Shown: one piece after another, positions 4,265 to 14,897 of the stretch
How positions within the stretch are numbered: position 1 is the first letter of the stretch
Layout of the letters: every line of letters starts with the position of its first letter
Origin: a virus
Virus record (IMG/VR): IMGVR_UViG_3300030119_000874
Span: 1-27,087 of that record
Strand: one strand, 5' to 3'
Length of the DNA stretch: 27,087 nucleotides
Notes under the pieces: generated by a model
Database searches by the model: none
The model's input: only the letters and a program-made list of their open reading frames with translations
Told to the model about the DNA's origin: nothing
Translations under genes and position numbers: made by a program

Positions 4265-4678
4265 ATGGAATTAGTCTTACCTTACCCACCGTCGGTGAAT
4301 CACTACTGGCGACACTTCCGGGGGCGAACGCTCATCAGCCGTCAAGGTCGTGCGTATCGACAGCAGGTCAAAACACAGTGCCAGGGGATGGGCGGCCAGC
4401 CACCTCGTGATGGTCGTTTGGCCGTGGCGATGGATGCGTTTCCACCGGATCGACGCAGACGCGATCTGGACAACATTCAGAAAGCATCACTCGATTCGAT
4501 GCAGCATGCAGGCATCTATCTTGATGATTCGCAAGTGGACATGTTGGTTGTGCAACGTCGCCTCCCGATCCCCGGTGGCCAACTTGTCGTGCGAATCCAA
4601 GAGTACCCACTTCATCGTTGCCCGTTGTGCGGTAGTCCGATGTCCAGCCTTGAAAGTGAATACATCAATGACAACTAA
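4265..4678 (+). CDS. rusA: RusA-like Holliday junction resolvase
   Basis: Protein of 137 residues with the N-terminal LPYPPSVNHYWRH typical of RusA and the catalytic pattern DRRRRDLDN...K...LD...DDSQVD: Asp67, Asp69, Lys73, Asp87, Asp88 and Asp92 match the conserved metal-binding and catalytic positions of E. coli RusA. It would cut four-way junctions made during recombination or replication. A G-rich site precedes the ATG. The C-terminus carries an extra HRCPLCGSP (a single CxxC) not needed for the fold; two such peptides could share a zinc in the dimer, which is speculation. The end overlaps the start of the ParB-HTH gene by 11 nt. Confidence 0.9.
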   Translation: MELVLPYPPSVNHYWRHFRGRTLISRQGRAYRQQVKTQCQGMGGQPPRDGRLAVAMDAFPPDRRRRDLDNIQKASLDSMQHAGIYLDDSQVDMLVVQRRLPIPGGQLVVRIQEYPLHRCPLCGSPMSSLESEYINDN

Positions 4679-5648
4679 AACCCAGACACTCAAGATCGAT
4701 CAAATCCGTATCGATGGTGGCACGCAACCACGTGTGGCTATTGATGAAGATGTCGTGGTCGAATATGCCGACCTGTACGTTGAAGGTGTCGATCTGCCGC
4801 CCGTCACTGTTTTTCATGACGGTTCAACCTATTGGTTAGCTGATGGCTTCCATCGCTATTGGGCCAGCAAACAAACCGAACGTGAAGCGATTGCGGTTGA
4901 TGTCCAACAAGGCACACGCCGCGATGCGATCCTTTATTCAGTCGGTGCCAATGCGACGCATGGTCTGCGTCGGAGCAATGCAGATAAACGCAAAGCCGTG
5001 TTGACCATGTTGCAGGATGATGAATGGTCCCAGTACTCGGATCACGAGATTGCCAGACAATGCAACGTGACGCAGCCAACTGTCGGTCGACACCGCGCCT
5101 CACTAAAACAATTTATTAGTGAGAACACACCGGCGACCGATCAAACAGCCCCCCAACCCGAATCCTCACTAAAACAATTTATTAGTGAGGATGGCTCAAA
5201 GTCGACTCAAATCGCTGAAAAATCTACTTCCAAGCTACCACAGAATGATGGCAGCAGCCTGCCATCCCAACAGCGTACCTACAAGACCAAGCATGGCACC
5301 GTTTCCAGCATGAAAACGGGCAAGATTGGTCGCACGTCTAAGTCGAAAACATCCAAAACGCCGCGTTTTGGCAAAAACGCGTATCGTCCCAAAGCCTGTC
5401 ACAGTGAAGACGGCCCCGTTCCCATGCGGGCCATCTCGTTACCTCTGAAAAATCCCATCCAAGCAGCCCGGAGCATGATCAGCATTTACGGCGATGACTA
5501 CATGCGCCAGGTTGCAACTGAACTGAATCGAATTTTCCAATCCCAGAAAGGACTCTCAAATGATTGCACAGCCCACGAACCACACGGAACCGCAGATTCA
5601 GACCACCTTCATGAACGTCACACCGGACATTGCCAGCCAGTGGCTTGA
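4668..5648 (+). CDS. ParB-like protein with helix-turn-helix domain
   Basis: Protein of 326 residues. The N-terminus is a ParB/Srx-type domain (KIDQIRIDGGTQPR, then LADGFHR at 57-63). Residues 103-147 hold a helix-turn-helix (DDEWSQYSDHEIARQCNVTQ, then PTVGRHRASL). A long basic linker with RTYKTKHGT and KIGR follows, a layout common in phage ParB-like regulators. ATG 4668 is chosen because the upstream frame lies inside rusA; there is no strong ribosome site, so coupling to the rusA stop is likely. The octapeptide SLKQFISE occurs twice, at 145 and 167, because a 25-nt palindrome is duplicated in the gene. The last 30 codons overlap the next gene by 89 nt. Role: DNA-binding regulator or partition-like protein. 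Confidence 0.8.
   Translation: MTTKTQTLKIDQIRIDGGTQPRVAIDEDVVVEYADLYVEGVDLPPVTVFHDGSTYWLADGFHRYWASKQTEREAIAVDVQQGTRRDAILYSVGANATHGLRRSNADKRKAVLTMLQDDEWSQYSDHEIARQCNVTQPTVGRHRASLKQFISENTPATDQTAPQPESSLKQFISEDGSKSTQIAEKSTSKLPQNDGSSLPSQQRTYKTKHGTVSSMKTGKIGRTSKSKTSKTPRFGKNAYRPKACHSEDGPVPMRAISLPLKNPIQAARSMISIYGDDYMRQVATELNRIFQSQKGLSNDCTAHEPHGTADSDHLHERHTGHCQPVA
5099..5189 (+). repeat. Duplicated 25-nt palindromic element inside the ParB-HTH gene
   Basis: An identical 25-nt segment occurs at 5099-5123 and 5165-5189, 66 nt apart and so in the same frame. Each copy is an inverted repeat with arms CTCACTAA and TTAGTGAG around 9 nt. In the protein it reads SLKQFISE twice, straight after the helix-turn-helix. 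Identity at every base, silent positions included, suggests selection on DNA or RNA, or a recent duplication. Confidence 0.85.
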
Positions 5649-6390
5649 GGGTAATGTGCGTAACCGTCGCATTGACCAGAAACATGTCGAATGCCTTGCT
5701 CAGGAAATGTTGGCTGGCCGCTGGAACATCACGCATCAGGGCATCGCCTTCGACACCAATGGTACGTTAGTCGATGGCCAGCACCGACTCTGGGCCATTT
5801 TGCAGGCAGGGTGTGCCATTCGCATGGCCGTGTCGTTCGGCGTCCCGGCAGGCAACATTGATGCCATCGATGGCATGAAGGCCCGACGGGTCGTGGATCG
5901 AATGTCTCTCACCGGCACGTTCGGCACCGAGGGTGTGACGTCCTACCACGCATCGACCTTGCGTGAAATGTACCAGTGCCTCAATCCCGGTCGCAAGCTG
6001 CCGTATCACGAGGAGATGGAGTTGATGACCATGCACATCAACGCCATCCGCTTTGCGACGGCCCATGTGGCAACCAAGGCCAGGGGTATTGCGGTGGCCC
6101 ATGTCCGTGCCGTGATCGCGCGGGCCTGGTACTCGGTTGACCATGATCAACTGGCCCAATTCTGCCGGGTGCTCTCCACCGGCATGCTGGAAACCACCTG
6201 CGACGCGACCATCATCAAGCTGCGTGACCAACTCATGGCAACTGGCAGTACGCGCAATCGCACAATCCAGAAGGAACTTTACGGCAAGGTCGAACGCGTC
6301 CTCACCCACTGGCTCAACGGTGAAACCCGCTCGGTCCTGCGCCCGGTGACCAGTGAACAATTCATGCTGCCCGAGGAGGTGATCGATTGA
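5560..6390 (+). CDS. DGQHRL-motif (ParB/Srx-like fold) protein
   Basis: Protein of 276 residues. Residues 19-80 carry the core of a ParB-superfamily domain: VTPDIASQWLEGNVRNRRID, WNITHQGIAFDTNGTLVDGQ and HRLWAILQAG, with the DGQHRL box at 72-77. The rest is alpha-helical with no recognised motif. Proteins of this type are common in phages near replication genes; their activity is not established, although the DGQHR box in related folds binds or hydrolyses nucleotides. AAAGGA at 5547-5552 is 7 nt before the ATG. The start lies inside the ParB-HTH frame (89-nt overlap), and the stop overlaps the helicase TTG start. Confidence 0.7.
   Translation: MIAQPTNHTEPQIQTTFMNVTPDIASQWLEGNVRNRRIDQKHVECLAQEMLAGRWNITHQGIAFDTNGTLVDGQHRLWAILQAGCAIRMAVSFGVPAGNIDAIDGMKARRVVDRMSLTGTFGTEGVTSYHASTLREMYQCLNPGRKLPYHEEMELMTMHINAIRFATAHVATKARGIAVAHVRAVIARAWYSVDHDQLAQFCRVLSTGMLETTCDATIIKLRDQLMATGSTRNRTIQKELYGKVERVLTHWLNGETRSVLRPVTSEQFMLPEEVID
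6373..6380 (+). promoter_or_regulatory. Strong ribosome site supporting a TTG start
   Basis: GAGGAGGT ends 6 nt before TTG 6387. This near-perfect anti-16S match, plus a TTGA overlap with the upstream stop, supports TTG as the real start of the helicase. It also suggests the host has a canonical anti-Shine-Dalgarno sequence. Confidence 0.75.
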
Positions 6391-8141
6391 TACAGGCTTG
6401 TGCCCAACAACCTGTGATCACCCTGCGCCCGTATCAGGCCGAGGCGGTGGACGCTGTGTACGAGCATCTGCGCTGTCGGGATGACAACCCCTGTGTTGTC
6501 ATCCCGACAGCTGGGGGCAAGACACCCATCATGGCGACCATCTGCCGTGACGCTGTGTCGAAGTGGGGTGGTCGCGTGCTCATTCTGGCCCACGTCAAGG
6601 AATTGATCGAGCAGGCAGTGGACAAGCTTCATGCGATGGCACCGGATCTGTGGTATCGAATCGGGTGCTATTCTGCGGGGCTCAAGAGCCGGGATACGGA
6701 GCATGACATCATTGTGGCTGGCATTCAATCGGTGTATCGCAAGGCTGCGGAACTGGATCGTTTTGATCTCATCCTTGTGGATGAATGCCACATGCTCCCA
6801 CCCAATGGTGAGGGGATGTACCAGCAGTTCCTCAACGAGGCGAAGATCGTTAATCCCAATGTGCGCTTGATCGGTTTGACGGCCACACCGTATCGCATGA
6901 CCAGCGGCACCATCTGTGGCCCAGCCCCGGAACATCTGCTTAACCATGTGTGTTACGAGGTGGGTGTTCGTGAGTTGATTGCTCAAGGTTACCTGTGCCC
7001 ACTCAAGACCAAAGCAGGCAGGCGTAAGGCGGACACATCAGGATTGCACATCCGTGCCGGTGAATTCATTGCTGGTGAAGTCGAAGCCCTGATGGACGAT
7101 GACTCGCTGGTTCATTCAGCTTGTCGGGAAATCGTTGAGCAGACAAAAGATCGGCATTCGGTTCTGATCTTTGCTTCAAGCGTGCAACATGCCCAGCATG
7201 TGCATCGCGTCCTGAGTGAGATGGGCCATGAATGTGGATTTGTCTGCGGTGACAGTTCGGGCATCTTCCGTGATGACATTCTACGTCGGTTCAAAGAAGG
7301 TGATCTCAAGTATCTGGTCAACGTCAATGTACTGACCACCGGCTTCGACGCGCCAAACATTGATTGTGTCGCACTGCTACGTCCAACCAATTCTCCAGGA
7401 CTTTATTACCAGATGCTGGGTCGGGGATTCCGACTGCATCCGGCCAAGACCAACTGCCAGGTGTTGGACTTCGGTGGCAACATATTGCGGCATGGGCCAG
7501 TGGATGCCTTGCAGATCAAAGACAAATCGGATCGGAAAAGCAGTTCCGAAGCACCAGCCAAAGAGTGTCCCAACTGCCAGGCATTGATCCATGCGTCATA
7601 CAGTATCTGCCCAGATTGTGGCCATGAGTTCCCACCACCGGAGCGAGACAAGCACGATGGTAGCGCTTCGACAGCAGGTGTGCTATCCGGTGAAGTAACT
7701 GAAACCGATTACGACGTGTCGTCAGTGTATTACAGCATCCACACCAAACGTGGTGCGCCACCCGAACATCCCAAAACCTTGCGTGTCGATTACCGCTGCG
7801 GATTCAACGAATACCACAGCGAATGGATCTGTGTCGCCCATCCCAAAGGCAGTTATGCCTGGCAAAAAGCCAGTACATGGTGGCAGGCGCGATCCAATGA
7901 ACCCATGCCCGACACCGTGGAACAGGCAGTCGAACTGGCTGAAGCCGGTGCCTTGGCCCAACCATTATCCATCACCGTGCGTTCCGTCACCGGCGAAAAA
8001 TTCGACCGCATTACCAATTACGAATTGGGATCCATTCCACCGCGCGTGGACGGTAGCGATGAACGTGAAACGGTAGCTAGTACGACATCGCCCGATCAAC
8101 CGTGGACCGAATGGCCCGATGACGATGACATTCCTTTTTGA
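6387..8141 (+). CDS. SF2 DEAD/DEAH-box helicase with zinc ribbon and SSB-like tail
   Basis: Protein of 584 residues. The Q-motif region is LRPYQAEAVDAV (13-24), motif I PTAGGKTP (40-47), motif II DECH (132-135), motif III TATP (165-168), motif V LTTGFDAPNID (316-326) and motif VI QMLGRGFR (342-349). After the helicase core a zinc ribbon has Cys394, 397, 408 and 411 (CPNC and CPDC). The last 40 residues are disordered and acidic and end in PDDDDIPF, almost the same as the C-terminal tip of bacterial SSB. It would unwind DNA, perhaps branched intermediates or the origin. The TTG start is fixed by an excellent ribosome site. It lies in one operon with the recombination genes. Confidence 0.9.
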   Translation: MIQACAQQPVITLRPYQAEAVDAVYEHLRCRDDNPCVVIPTAGGKTPIMATICRDAVSKWGGRVLILAHVKELIEQAVDKLHAMAPDLWYRIGCYSAGLKSRDTEHDIIVAGIQSVYRKAAELDRFDLILVDECHMLPPNGEGMYQQFLNEAKIVNPNVRLIGLTATPYRMTSGTICGPAPEHLLNHVCYEVGVRELIAQGYLCPLKTKAGRRKADTSGLHIRAGEFIAGEVEALMDDDSLVHSACREIVEQTKDRHSVLIFASSVQHAQHVHRVLSEMGHECGFVCGDSSGIFRDDILRRFKEGDLKYLVNVNVLTTGFDAPNIDCVALLRPTNSPGLYYQMLGRGFRLHPAKTNCQVLDFGGNILRHGPVDALQIKDKSDRKSSSEAPAKECPNCQALIHASYSICPDCGHEFPPPERDKHDGSASTAGVLSGEVTETDYDVSSVYYSIHTKRGAPPEHPKTLRVDYRCGFNEYHSEWICVAHPKGSYAWQKASTWWQARSNEPMPDTVEQAVELAEAGALAQPLSITVRSVTGEKFDRITNYELGSIPPRVDGSDERETVASTTSPDQPWTEWPDDDDIPF

Positions 8142-8152
8142 AAGATTAGCTT

Positions 8153-9298
8153 ATGAATACAACATGTCTTGAAAACAATCCCGCTGTCCTCGACGCGTCT
8201 TTGAGCGTTGTTATTGATGATGAATTCCAGAGCCTTATTCCTCCGTTAACGGACGAGGAACTCACTGGCTTGGAAGAGAATCTGTTGCGCGACGGCTGTA
8301 TCGATCCTCTGATCGTGTGGGCGGAACAATGCATTCTGCTGGATGGTCACAATCGCAAAGCCATCTGTGATCGGTATGGCATCGATTATGAATTGCATAC
8401 GGTCAGTTTGCCGGATCGTGCAGCTGCTGCGGACTGGATCGACACCCATCAATTGGGGCGACGTAATTTATCACCTGAACAAATGAGTCTGCTGCGTGGG
8501 CGACGATATAACCGGCTGAAAATGCCACGTGGCGGAGACAGACGAAGTGATTTTTCAAAGGACCAATGTGGTCCTTTGAAATCTGCTGGGAAATTGGCAG
8601 AGGAACATGGCGTTTCACCAACGACACTTAAACGCGACGGACGATTCGCAGATGCCGTGGACCGACTTGATTTACAGCGTGAAATCGCCAGTGGACAGAT
8701 CAAGCCTGCTCGCAACGAAGTGGTGCAGGCAGCGCGTTCCCTGCCTGAGAATCCAACGCCATCGCAAATCCAGCAAGCACGCGAGTCGGTGACCAAACCT
8801 CATGTGGCCAACAACACTGGCGACAACGAATGGTATACCCCGGCACAATACATCGAGCGTGCAACGGATGTGATGGGTGGGATCGATCTTGATCCAGCGT
8901 CCTGCGTTGCAGCCAACAAGGTCGTCGGTGCGACGCATATTTACACGGCAGAAGATGATGGCTTGCAACAAACGTGGCGTGGCCGTGTGTTCATGAACCC
9001 ACCATACGCTCAACCGCTGATCCAACAGTTCTGTGACAAACTCGTTGAAGAATTTAAGTCCGGCAATGTCACACAATCCATCGTCCTGGTGAACAACGCA
9101 ACAGAGACCAAGTGGTTTCATGCATTATTGTCCGTCGCATCGGCAGTGTGCTTCCCCGTTGGCCGTGTGCGTTTCTGGCACCCAGACAAAACCTCCGCGC
9201 CATTGCAGGGGCAGGCAGTGTTGTACATTGGCAACAACATCGATGGATTCACCAACGCGTTCGAAGACTTGGGGGATGTGTTCTATGCTGCCAAGTAA
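8153..9298 (+). CDS. ParB-like domain fused to Dam-type adenine methyltransferase
   Basis: Protein of 381 residues. Residues 15-100 are a ParB-like domain (LTGLEENLLRDGCIDPLIVW, ILLDGHNR at 61-68). Residues 140-170 are a helix-turn-helix (SAGKLAEEHGVSPTTLKRDG). Residues 224-381 match the DNA N6-adenine methyltransferase family of phages: DNEWYTP (224-230), IDLDPAS (244-250) for AdoMet binding, and catalytic FMNPPY (280-285). It would methylate adenine in a short site, protecting phage DNA or marking the origin, with the ParB-HTH part giving targeting. The ATG has only a weak site (GAAAG). A 29-nt perfect palindrome lies in the gene just before the HTH codons. Its end overlaps the next gene by 14 nt. 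Confidence 0.85.
   Translation: MNTTCLENNPAVLDASLSVVIDDEFQSLIPPLTDEELTGLEENLLRDGCIDPLIVWAEQCILLDGHNRKAICDRYGIDYELHTVSLPDRAAAADWIDTHQLGRRNLSPEQMSLLRGRRYNRLKMPRGGDRRSDFSKDQCGPLKSAGKLAEEHGVSPTTLKRDGRFADAVDRLDLQREIASGQIKPARNEVVQAARSLPENPTPSQIQQARESVTKPHVANNTGDNEWYTPAQYIERATDVMGGIDLDPASCVAANKVVGATHIYTAEDDGLQQTWRGRVFMNPPYAQPLIQQFCDKLVEEFKSGNVTQSIVLVNNATETKWFHALLSVASAVCFPVGRVRFWHPDKTSAPLQGQAVLYIGNNIDGFTNAFEDLGDVFYAAK
8553..8581 (+). repeat. 29-nt palindrome inside the ParB-Dam gene
   Basis: TTTCAAAGGACCA at 8553-8565 is followed by 3 nt and its exact complement at 8569-8581. It lies within the codons for DFSKDQCGPLKS, immediately before the helix-turn-helix. It could be a DNA-binding site or a very stable mRNA hairpin. 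Confidence 0.85.
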
Positions 9299-12615: not shown

Positions 12616-12800
12616 TAACCGAAACGCATGCCCTGTATCGCCACACGTTGGCGCCTGTGGCGTCTGAGCTTCGGGCGTTGTATGGGTGTAGCCAAGGCCG
12701 AGATCGGCCACAGACGGCGACCAGGCAATGGTTCCTTCCCCCTAAGGACCTTTTCGATGGCGGCGGAACGAGCCACATTATTAGGCACAGTTTGTTGTGA
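12612..12800 (+). CDS. Doubtful small ORF
   Basis: 62 codons from a GTG that overlaps the previous stop as GTGA, which is the only argument for it. The predicted peptide has no recognisable motif. The interval also holds a hairpin (CGCCACA 12639-12645 with TGTGGCG 12656-12662) and the near-palindrome GGCCGAGATCGGCC at 12696-12709, so it may instead be a non-coding or decayed segment. Confidence 0.25.
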   Translation: MITETHALYRHTLAPVASELRALYGCSQGRDRPQTATRQWFLPPKDLFDGGGTSHIIRHSLL

Positions 12801-12850
12801 ACGTGCCGCAACATTTTCAGCAATTTAACCAACAGTCGTATGGAGATTTT

Positions 12851-14221
12851 ATGACCGCAACTCAGGACATCGTCACTTCCAATTTCAAGGTCGAGCTTCG
12901 CAAGATCGAGGACGTCAAGCCCTACGAACGTAATCCACGTCTCAATGACAAAGCCGTGGATGCCGTGGCCGCGTCACTGTCGGAGTTTGGATTCAGGCAG
13001 CCTATTGTCGTGGATGAAGACGGTGTGATCATCGCAGGCCACACGCGCTGGAAAGCTGCCAAGCAACTCGGCCTAATCAAAGTGCCGGTGCATGTCGCCA
13101 CTGATCTGACACCCGAGCAGGTTCGCGCGTATCGCCTGGCTGACAACCGCACCGGTGAACTCGCCGAGTGGGACATGTCGATCTTACCTATTGAACTCAA
13201 CGATCTGCGTGAAGGTGGATTCGACATGGACATTCTGGCCTTTGACGAAGAGGAACTTGGCAAGCTCATCAATGAAGCCCAAGGTGTGTCGGAAGGTTTA
13301 ACCGATCCTGATTCGATTCCCGAGCCACCCGATGCTGCGACTACCCAACCCGGTGACATTTGGGTGTTGGGCAACCATCGTTTGATGTGCGGTGACAGCT
13401 CATCGCCGGAGGATTTGGACCGCCTGTTGGATGGCGCAACTATTGATCTGTTTTCCAGTGATCCGCCGTACAACGTGAAAGTTGAGCCTCGCAGTAACAC
13501 CGCTATAGCAGCGGGTTTAAGCTCATTTGGAGATAAGAAAACCCAGCTTCATCACCAAAGTTTTGACAAAGCACGTGGCGCCACCGACGGCAAAAAAGCC
13601 AAGCAAAAAATGCGGGCCAAGGATCGCCCCTTGGCCAACGACTTTGTCAGTGACGAGGATTTTGACAACATGCTGCTGGCCTGGTTTGCCAACGCGTCAC
13701 GTGTCATGAAGCCCGGGGCGTCGTTCTACATCTGGGGCGGTTATGCCAATCTTGGCAACTATCCTGCTCCGATCAAAGCTGCGGGACTCTACTTTTCACA
13801 AGGTGTGATATGGGATAAGCAGCATCCTGTTCTTACCCGCAAGGATTTTATGGGGGCTTTTGAAATTTGCTTCTATGGCTGGAAAGAGGGCGCAGGTCAC
13901 CATTTCTACGGGCCAAACAATGCTACCGACCTATGGCATGTGAAAAAGGTCAATCCACAAGCCATGGTGCATTTGACGGAGAAACCTGTCGAGTTGGCTG
14001 TTCGCTGCATCCAGTATTCATCCAAGCCCGGTGAGAACGTTCTTGACCTCTTCGGTGGCAGCGGTTCAACCCTCATGGGCTGCGAGCAGACCGACCGTCA
14101 TGCATTTCTGATGGAGCTAGACGAATTGTACTGCGATGTCATCGTCAAACGCTGGGAGGCATTCACCGGAAAGCAAGCCAAGCGCATTGCAGCCAAACAG
14201 TCACCCGCTACACAAGCATGA
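12851..14221 (+). CDS. ParB-like domain fused to N4/N6 DNA methyltransferase
   Basis: 456 residues. Residues 12-100 are a ParB domain (ELRKIEDVKPYERNPR, IIAGHTRWKAA, RAYRLADNRTGELAEWD). Residues 165-440 are a DNA methyltransferase with DPPY at 204-207 before FGGSGST at 401-407, the beta-class order, for N4-cytosine or N6-adenine. GDIWVLGNHRLMCGDS is the typical bridge between the two parts. ATG 12851 is chosen over an upstream TTG-type start because of GGAGA at 12842-12846. It probably modifies phage DNA against host restriction. It is the last plus-strand gene before the minus-strand block and faces hepT tail to tail with a 56-bp gap. Confidence 0.9.
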   Translation: MTATQDIVTSNFKVELRKIEDVKPYERNPRLNDKAVDAVAASLSEFGFRQPIVVDEDGVIIAGHTRWKAAKQLGLIKVPVHVATDLTPEQVRAYRLADNRTGELAEWDMSILPIELNDLREGGFDMDILAFDEEELGKLINEAQGVSEGLTDPDSIPEPPDAATTQPGDIWVLGNHRLMCGDSSSPEDLDRLLDGATIDLFSSDPPYNVKVEPRSNTAIAAGLSSFGDKKTQLHHQSFDKARGATDGKKAKQKMRAKDRPLANDFVSDEDFDNMLLAWFANASRVMKPGASFYIWGGYANLGNYPAPIKAAGLYFSQGVIWDKQHPVLTRKDFMGAFEICFYGWKEGAGHHFYGPNNATDLWHVKKVNPQAMVHLTEKPVELAVRCIQYSSKPGENVLDLFGGSGSTLMGCEQTDRHAFLMELDELYCDVIVKRWEAFTGKQAKRIAAKQSPATQA

Positions 14222-14277: not shown

Positions 14278-14610
14278 TCAAATGGTCTTAAGCAAATATT
14301 CGACCGCTTCTTTAAGCGGCACCACGTCCCGTTCAATCACAGCCCATACTCGATTGAAATTGATCCCCATGTAGTTGTGGATCAGGACGTCTCGCAAACC
14401 GGCAATATCACGCCAGCGAATTTCAGGGCGAAGGGCTTTGGCTGCTTCACTCAGCTGTTTTACTGCTTCGCCAATGATTTCAAAATTGCGTACCACTGCA
14501 TCTTGGGTTTTTTCATCGTGCATGAAATGCACTTTGCCGTCGGTGGTATAGGCCTGAATTTTTTCGATGGCCTGCAAAATATGTTCAAGGTAAGGTCGGT
14601 CGCTTTTCAC
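14278..14610 (-). CDS. hepT: HepT-like HEPN ribonuclease toxin
   Basis: 110 residues, all alpha-helical, of the DUF86/HepT type. The catalytic RX4HXY motif is intact as RDVLIHNY (Arg73, His78, Tyr80), preceded by RNFEIIGEAVKQLSEA, the other conserved stretch. HepT proteins cut RNA; the partner MntA silences them by adding AMP to the Tyr of this motif. The start overlaps the mntA stop by 4 bp, the normal order for this pair. An intact active site suggests a working toxin. In a phage it would act as an accessory module: stabilisation, or defence against other phages. Confidence 0.9.
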   Translation of the reverse strand: MKSDRPYLEHILQAIEKIQAYTTDGKVHFMHDEKTQDAVVRNFEIIGEAVKQLSEAAKALRPEIRWRDIAGLRDVLIHNYMGINFNRVWAVIERDVVPLKEAVEYLLKTI

Positions 14611-14897
14611 AAGTCCACCGCCTGCGTAAGAATACTCTGTCGGAGACTCGGCGAAACCGCCTGGTCATCGACGACGTCTACCTTGCATTGCAGCAAATCT
14701 TGCAAATCATTGGTCAAGGCAATCTGGTCAAGCAATGATCGATCCTCTTCCAGATCGACAAGCAGATCAATATCACTGTCGGGCTTCTGGCTACCATCGA
14801 CAACTGATCCGAATACGCGGACATGCCGAGCACCGTAGCGATCCGCGATAGCCAGAATGGCCTGACGGCGGCTTTGAATGTCACTCATGGTAACCAT
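14607..14897 (-). CDS. mntA: MntA-like nucleotidyltransferase antitoxin
   Basis: 96 residues, a minimal nucleotidyltransferase. The signature GSX10DXD is present: Gly30-Ser31, then Asp42-Ile-Asp44 inside SDIDLLVD, with a possible third metal ligand in KVDVVD (near 74). By family it AMPylates the HepT tyrosine and so neutralises it. Two in-frame ATGs, at 14897 and 14888, are possible. The promoter predicted just upstream would start RNA almost exactly at 14897, so translation may be leaderless. Together with hepT it forms a self-contained cassette opposite in direction to the flanking plus-strand genes. Confidence 0.9.
   Translation of the reverse strand: MVTMSDIQSRRQAILAIADRYGARHVRVFGSVVDGSQKPDSDIDLLVDLEEDRSLLDQIALTNDLQDLLQCKVDVVDDQAVSPSLRQSILTQAVDL

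Follow-up and report, generated by a model that had tools for sequence, protein, structure and literature searches.

A hypervariable palindrome behind the helix-turn-helix codons of ParB-like phage and plasmid genes as a putative binding site of the encoded protein

Sites that lie inside the gene of the protein that binds them are already known from lambda O and from parS-359, and dispersed sites that diversify are known from the stoperators. Phage lambda carries iterons in the middle of the O gene, each of them an inverted repeat, which together form ori-lambda (PMC7466680, PMC4488673), and B. subtilis ParB (Spo0J) has one of its sites, parS-359, inside parB (PMC4442127). In ParB and Noc, a few residues at the DNA interface set specificity, and switching of specificity is achieved through them (PMC7383237). 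KorB of plasmid RK2, likewise a ParB-fold DNA binder, regulates genes of its own replicon from OB operators (PMC11790492), and the stoperators of cluster A mycobacteriophages are dispersed regulator sites, 13 bp long and directional, whose specificities diversify together with those of the regulators (PMC6550527). StrR-like ParB-fold activators (PMC10886168) resemble the present family by database annotation alone, some homologues being named streptomycin biosynthesis regulators. A 2025 survey of the ParB fold describes phage ParB fusions, its text making no mention of palindromes (PMC12704722). No description was found in the literature of in-gene sites linked to the helix-turn-helix (HTH) in this ParB-like phage and plasmid family. 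For StrR, too, no in-gene self-sites tied to the HTH are known to us.

The locus described here shares something with several of these systems. As in lambda O, repeated inverted-repeat sites lie in the middle of a gene of a phage replication module and extra copies add residues to the protein, binding here being read from covariation; unlike lambda O, the protein has a ParB fold, the site is usually single and without an adjacent AT-rich region, more than 100 covarying specificities follow a readable residue-base code, and some members lie outside replication modules. As with B. subtilis ParB and parS-359, a ParB-fold protein is paired with a palindromic site in its own gene and few interface residues decide specificity, whereas canonical parS is conserved and used with ParA, and the site described here is hypervariable, keeps a set position relative to the HTH codons and was seen without ParA. 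KorB differs in that OB lies upstream of promoters, has one specificity and works with KorA (PMC11790492). The stoperators find a parallel in the dispersed sites of some Nostoc genomes, but the sites here are palindromes of 20-25 bp, usually one per element and inside the gene of the binder. What appears to be new is the combination of a hypervariable palindrome, its fixed place behind the HTH codons, and base-by-residue covariation across bacterial phyla and mobile elements.

The window, by which is meant the whole stretch of 27,087 nucleotides of viral DNA, an IMG/VR contig, that was analysed, contains one such gene with the following features.

4668-5648, + strand: coding sequence of the ParB-like HTH protein, 326 aa (phrog_1033, profile and model)
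5034-5096, + strand: HTH codons, aa 123-143, YSDHEIARQCNVTQPTVGRHR (family HMM alignment; model helices 125-132 and 136-153)
5043-5081, + strand: codons of the putative base-reading residues His126, Thr135, Gln136, Pro137 and Thr138 (highest covariation with the palindrome)
5099-5123, no strand assigned: palindrome copy 1, CTCACTAAAACAATTTATTAGTGAG, putative binding site of the same gene's protein
5124-5164, + strand: spacer separating copy 1 from copy 2, which matches the stretch behind copy 2 at 16/41 positions
5165-5189, no strand assigned: palindrome copy 2, identical to copy 1 and 66 nt downstream
5269-5331, + strand: conserved peptide beyond the palindrome, QQRTYKTKHGTVSSMKTGKIG, common to most homologues

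The encoded protein consists of a ParB/Srx-fold N domain, the HTH, a linker encoded by the palindromes, an RTYKTKHG motif and a helical C-terminal part, and the succession of ParB/Srx-fold N domain and HTH places it in the ParB superfamily. It matches phrog_1033, the ParB-like PHROG, with E=1.4e-20, and the family profile reaches ParB/Spo0J structures at 4e-6 to 1e-5. The AlphaFold model has a mean pLDDT of 78, mostly about 85-97 in the N domain and HTH and low in the stretch after the palindrome; Foldseek returned Noc, ParB and KorB as its top structural matches (best about 5e-8). Pfam ParB_N was found in 9 of 27 family members; in the window protein it was absent at E<=0.01, and Pfam gave no name. 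A 100% match to the protein comes from the Phycisphaerales MAG UBA7800. The ParA-binding motif (L/F/I)G(K/R)G(L/F/I) is absent from the N-terminus, MTTKTQTLKIDQIRI, and no ParA-type ATPase was found among the window ORFs scanned. The counterparts of the GERR and ENxxR motifs are GFHR and GANAxHGxRR, which keep the Gly, Arg and Asn, the Glu of ENxxR being replaced by Ala.

Within the window, CTCACTAAAACAATTTATTAGTGAG occurs exactly twice, in both cases inside the ParB-HTH gene, and no further match was found in the 27,087 bases with up to 3 mismatches, shuffles giving an expectation of 0. The copies are identical over 25 nt, or 26 nt with the preceding C, start 66 nt (22 codons) apart, and both lie in frame, encoding the peptide SLKQFISE. 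Each pairs at 10 of 12 positions, with perfect outer arms of 8 bp around an AT-rich, partly unpaired middle of 9 nt. The sequence-only reading had reported a duplicated in-frame palindrome after the HTH; the duplication holds at 25/25 positions and these are the only two matches, although the palindrome itself is imperfect. None of 20,000 synonymous-codon shuffles of the gene produced identical copies, and 30 of 20,000 reached the 10/12 pairs of copy 1. The last HTH codon, Arg143, occupies 5094-5096, so that copy 1 begins 3 nt later. The 41-nt spacers that follow the two copies have fallen to 16/41 identity, indicating that the spacer is not conserved, while the palindromes are still identical at 25/25.

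A collection of homologues out of viral contigs, genomes and plasmids gave 182 distinct genes in which the end of the HTH could be mapped; the phage records in GenBank held few relatives, all of them distant. With a strong site defined as an inverted repeat of score >=8 located <=120 nt after the HTH, 135 of the 182 have one; the corresponding figures are 1.6% for windows upstream, 6% for windows downstream and 2.7% for synonymous-codon shuffles. Counting weaker consensus-type sites raises the number to 153. At this relaxed threshold 29 of the 182 are without a clear in-gene site, and a few, such as L144 and L181-L184, have none by any measure applied. The 135 strong sites comprise 118 different palindromes, so that the different palindrome at the same place in each homologue, which had been proposed as a check on the window gene, was recovered, and the conserved sequence expected of parS was not, the palindromes being tied instead to the sequence of the HTH. 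The commonest half-site is roughly C-W-H-W-C-T-[G/T]-N-N-R-A-N, in which CT at arm positions 8-7 is nearly fixed and positions 3-6 differ among genes and are complementary within each gene. Some genes hold several copies: two in the window gene, three in L083 (66-nt spacing) and five in L159 (48-nt spacing). In L152 the palindrome lies in the N-terminal codons, ahead of the ParB domain, and still fits the L152 HTH.

Two further arrangements were seen among the homologues. L139 and L157 have two adjacent palindromes of differing specificity just behind the HTH codons, of which the residue-base code fits only one to the gene's own HTH. In L023, L043, L123, L129, L135, L268 and L359, the cassette of ParB domain, HTH and palindrome is fused to sequences that resemble, or are annotated as, DNA methyltransferases (in L123 the site was not found), and RuvC is the name given at the match in some plasmid records.

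Inverted repeats in a coding sequence can fold as RNA, and a hairpin governing translation or transcript stability is thus one explanation to be weighed; counts of G-T, A-C and other mismatches in the aligned arms make it highly improbable. At arm positions 3-9, pairs are Watson-Crick in nearly all genes, with one G-T among >800 pairs; across positions 1-12 there are 18 G-T pairs against 39 A-C, so that the G-U excess of a hairpin is missing. Nor would a hairpin explain the covariation with HTH residues or the dispersed intergenic copies described below, and pair statistics and recognition code together largely refute it. A repeat conserved for its peptide was also considered and is ruled out, since the palindrome is read in all three codon frames: the conserved CT falls in each of the three codon phases (67/38/14), and the palindrome codons give peptides as unrelated as SLKQFISE, LSGGNRQID and ICDKNADT. 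What is conserved is therefore DNA and not peptide.

Which residues go with which bases was examined by an unbiased scan in which the mutual information of every arm position with each of 138 protein columns was expressed as a Z-score from permutations. The top-ranked columns, 131, 132, 130, 135, 121, 120, 136 and 133, all belong to the HTH, and the pairings are largely position-specific, column 121 being tied to base 6 alone and column 131 chiefly to base 5, column 132 to both base 4 and base 3, column 130 to base 3 and column 133 to base 1. The individual associations are R121 with G6 (77/78), E/D131 with C5 (30/30), H131 with G5 (42/47), Q131 with A5 (10/12), K/R132 with G4 (27/28), D/E132 with C4 (13/13) and T133 with A1 (24/25), with Fisher p values of about 1e-9 to 1e-26 that are approximate owing to related sequences. 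Preferences of Arg for G, Glu or Asp for C, His for G and Gln for A are the known ones of direct DNA readout. The window residues His126 (family column 121) and Thr135, Gln136, Pro137 and Thr138 (columns 130-133) stand in the columns with top covariation to arm positions 6, 3, 5, 3/4 and 1, respectively, and the gene fits the code, with A5 for Gln136, A3 for Pro137 and A1 for Thr138.

Plain linkage of neighbouring codons is rejected as the cause, because columns just downstream of the palindrome, which are closely linked too, show no such covariation (maximum 6.9, against 39.7 for HTH columns and 8.8 for the N domain). When half of the clades were used to choose columns and the other half for the test, 73% of bases were predicted, compared with 47% by the majority base. 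The code also holds for the most part in four plasmid homologues that were not in the data set: L354 fits at all bases checked and L359 and L360 at most; L357 is a misfit at base 5. Judged from these sequence patterns, binding of the ParB-like protein to the palindrome of its own gene is almost certain. The sequence-only reading had taken DNA or RNA to be what is conserved and had proposed that the protein binds these sites; codon frames, Watson-Crick arms and HTH covariation bear out the DNA half of the first claim, homologue palindromes and HTH-base covariation lend support to the second, and the translation-controlling hairpin offered as its alternative fares badly against the lack of G-U excess, the use of all codon frames and covariation with DNA-reading residues.

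The specificity so encoded changes as a unit. Nearly identical N domains can go with quite different HTHs and palindromes: L045 and L048 are 98.7% identical over 1,365 bp, and nearly all of their 16 in-gene differences fall in the HTH and the palindrome, both arms of which have changed in a matching way. In L347 and L350, which belong to the dozen or so copies of the gene on one Planctomycetes chromosome, regions of 87% and 98% identity flank a divergent stretch of 54% identity or less. The HTHs of the window gene and L083 differ at two residues, and the change of His126 to Asn accompanies that of A6 to T6. The reading of HTH and palindrome as a hypervariable specificity cassette within an otherwise conserved gene is well supported by such comparisons. 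The site follows the HTH codons at a distance of about 10 nt, which links address to reader and lets the two change or be swapped jointly. Mutual exclusion of specificities among the many copies of one Planctomycetes genome was considered and dropped, as some copies share one specificity.

The number of sites per element bears on what the site does. In 1.5 Mb of loci, mostly 4-10 kb on each side of the gene, 18 extra cognate sites were found against about 6 expected by chance, so that most genes are usually without extra sites nearby. Whole genomes of Brasilonema, Rhizonema and Symploca relatives (several of 6-9 Mb), as well as plasmids of 283 kb and 55 kb, have one cognate site per gene copy, in the gene, and in such single-site replicons the in-gene site must therefore suffice for its role. 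Dispersed stoperator-like sites were found neither in the window nor in the other single-site genomes searched.

Other arrangements exist. Five Nostoc genomes of 8-9 Mb (L373-L380 in G002 and G003; G005-G007) have 7-10 cognate sites over one prophage-like region of 60-67 kb and almost none outside it; in the two examined, most of the dispersed sites are in short intergenic gaps, in one genome mostly 34-51 nt before a start codon. One palindrome copy in the Nostoc regions is in frame in another gene (KLSGGIRQIDE). The 20,293-base contig of L268 has cognate sites about 3.65 kb apart, at 5937, 9581 and 13265, of which the one at 13265 is in the gene. Two elements of one Planctomycetes genome, L381 (near 3343385) and L382 (near 5713453-5713484), have in common a cluster of three neighbouring intergenic palindromes, each of a different specificity, and one of them matches each element's own protein.

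Rickettsia palindromic elements are mobile palindromes that insert in frame into coding sequence. An element of this kind would account for palindromes in frame and for the copies in another gene and in gaps of the Nostoc prophage-like regions; it is a very remote prospect given 118 different sequences at one locus that are tied to the HTH, a genome-wide copy number that is usually one, and no gene-independent scatter of palindromes in the genomes searched.

The preferred reading, to which a probability of roughly 0.8 is given, is that the protein of each gene binds the palindromes of that gene as double-stranded DNA, and that the palindromes act in cis as self-sites. The identity of the site, selection at the DNA level, the recognition code and joint change appear well supported by comparison of sequences; dimer binding and the output of the site are more conjectural. 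A dimer of the ParB-like HTH protein would bind with each HTH reading one half-site, column 121 contacting arm base 6, 131 base 5, 132 bases 4 and 3, 130 base 3, and 133 base 1, and HTH and site, linked in the gene, would change or be exchanged as a hypervariable unit. The bound protein, possibly clamp-forming, would obstruct or silence transcription of its own gene and operon. In some elements additional copies may spread this effect across the whole prophage in the manner of stoperators, and diversification of specificities might avoid cross-talk with co-resident or superinfecting relatives. Because a lone in-gene copy suffices in phages, plasmids and chromosomes, the simplest output would be negative feedback on the gene or operon by roadblock or silencing, a tentative proposal whose chances are put a little below even: many family members lie in mid-operon next to replication genes, and the in-gene site would need to act as roadblock or silencer, unlike a classical promoter operator.

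A parS-like loading function shares the binding step with this explanation and differs in output: the ParB-fold protein would bind the in-gene palindrome, close as an NTP-dependent clamp and spread over its own genome, which would thereby be silenced, marked, condensed or segregated, as with KorB, Noc or ParB. The structural matches to these three proteins speak for it, as do the retained Gly and Arg of GERR and Asn of ENxxR (in GFHR and GAN), the 7-10 sites over the 60-67 kb regions of five Nostoc genomes and the precedent of parS-359 within parB (PMC4442127). It is nonetheless considered unlikely, with no ParA among the window genes examined, Ala in place of the ENxxR Glu, and the in-gene site alone in most elements examined.

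Downstream of the ParB-HTH gene, the window contains two further genes on the same strand.

5560-6390, + strand: downstream neighbour, PHROG match to phrog_5931
6387-8141, + strand: SF2 helicase (ResIII/DEAD)

On the other side the gene is flanked by RusA, and the same module includes a PD-(D/E)XK-like nuclease, an AAA_24 ATPase, DUF669, Prim-Pol/DUF3987 and methyltransferases. The protein encoded at 8153-9298 is a Dam methyltransferase with an N-terminal half that looks ParB-like by eye, and that at 12797-14221 is a fusion of ParB_N with an N6/N4 methyltransferase; no such palindrome was found in either gene. At 14278-14897 on the - strand, a HepT-like ribonuclease and an MNT-type nucleotidyltransferase form a pair that is a candidate toxin-antitoxin module of the phage.

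This setting raises the possibility of an origin inside an initiator gene, with the palindromes as iterons, the protein as initiator and the helicase next to it. The anatomy is that of ori-lambda with its inverted-repeat iterons in mid-O (PMC7466680, PMC4488673), 49 of the 119 homologous loci have a relative of the SF2 helicase downstream, usually at +1 or +2, primase-polymerase, DUF669 and RusA are close by, and GC skew rises over the site in 20 of 21 helicase-linked loci. The skew step, however, does not reach significance when plus-strand genes are tested at their third codon positions (p=0.26), no AT-rich unwinding region adjoins the site (mean A+T 50-250 nt after it does not exceed the locus average), the site is usually single, and large plasmids also carry the cassette in settings unrelated to replication, such as next to NRPS genes. 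An origin is accordingly judged rather improbable.

A broader proposal, speculative and on balance somewhat unlikely, is that of a self-address cassette of mobile elements, in which the protein would load on its own DNA in whatever place the gene reaches and spread or deliver fused activities such as DNA methyltransferases in cis, the cassette being swapped or diversified under selection for distinct types of immunity or incompatibility. If true, the family would be a natural library of >100 matched reader-site pairs. The family is widespread in phages and plasmids, address and reader travelling together, and constitutes a natural experiment in protein-DNA co-evolution. Because each gene records both reader and target, one gene is enough to tell the binding specificity, and no assay is needed to obtain a residue-to-base code. 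The family offers candidate orthogonal reader-site pairs, gives orphan ParB-like phage proteins a testable role and may allow the prediction of immunity or incompatibility groups, and it shows how specificity and target stay together through recombination when the site lies within the coding sequence.
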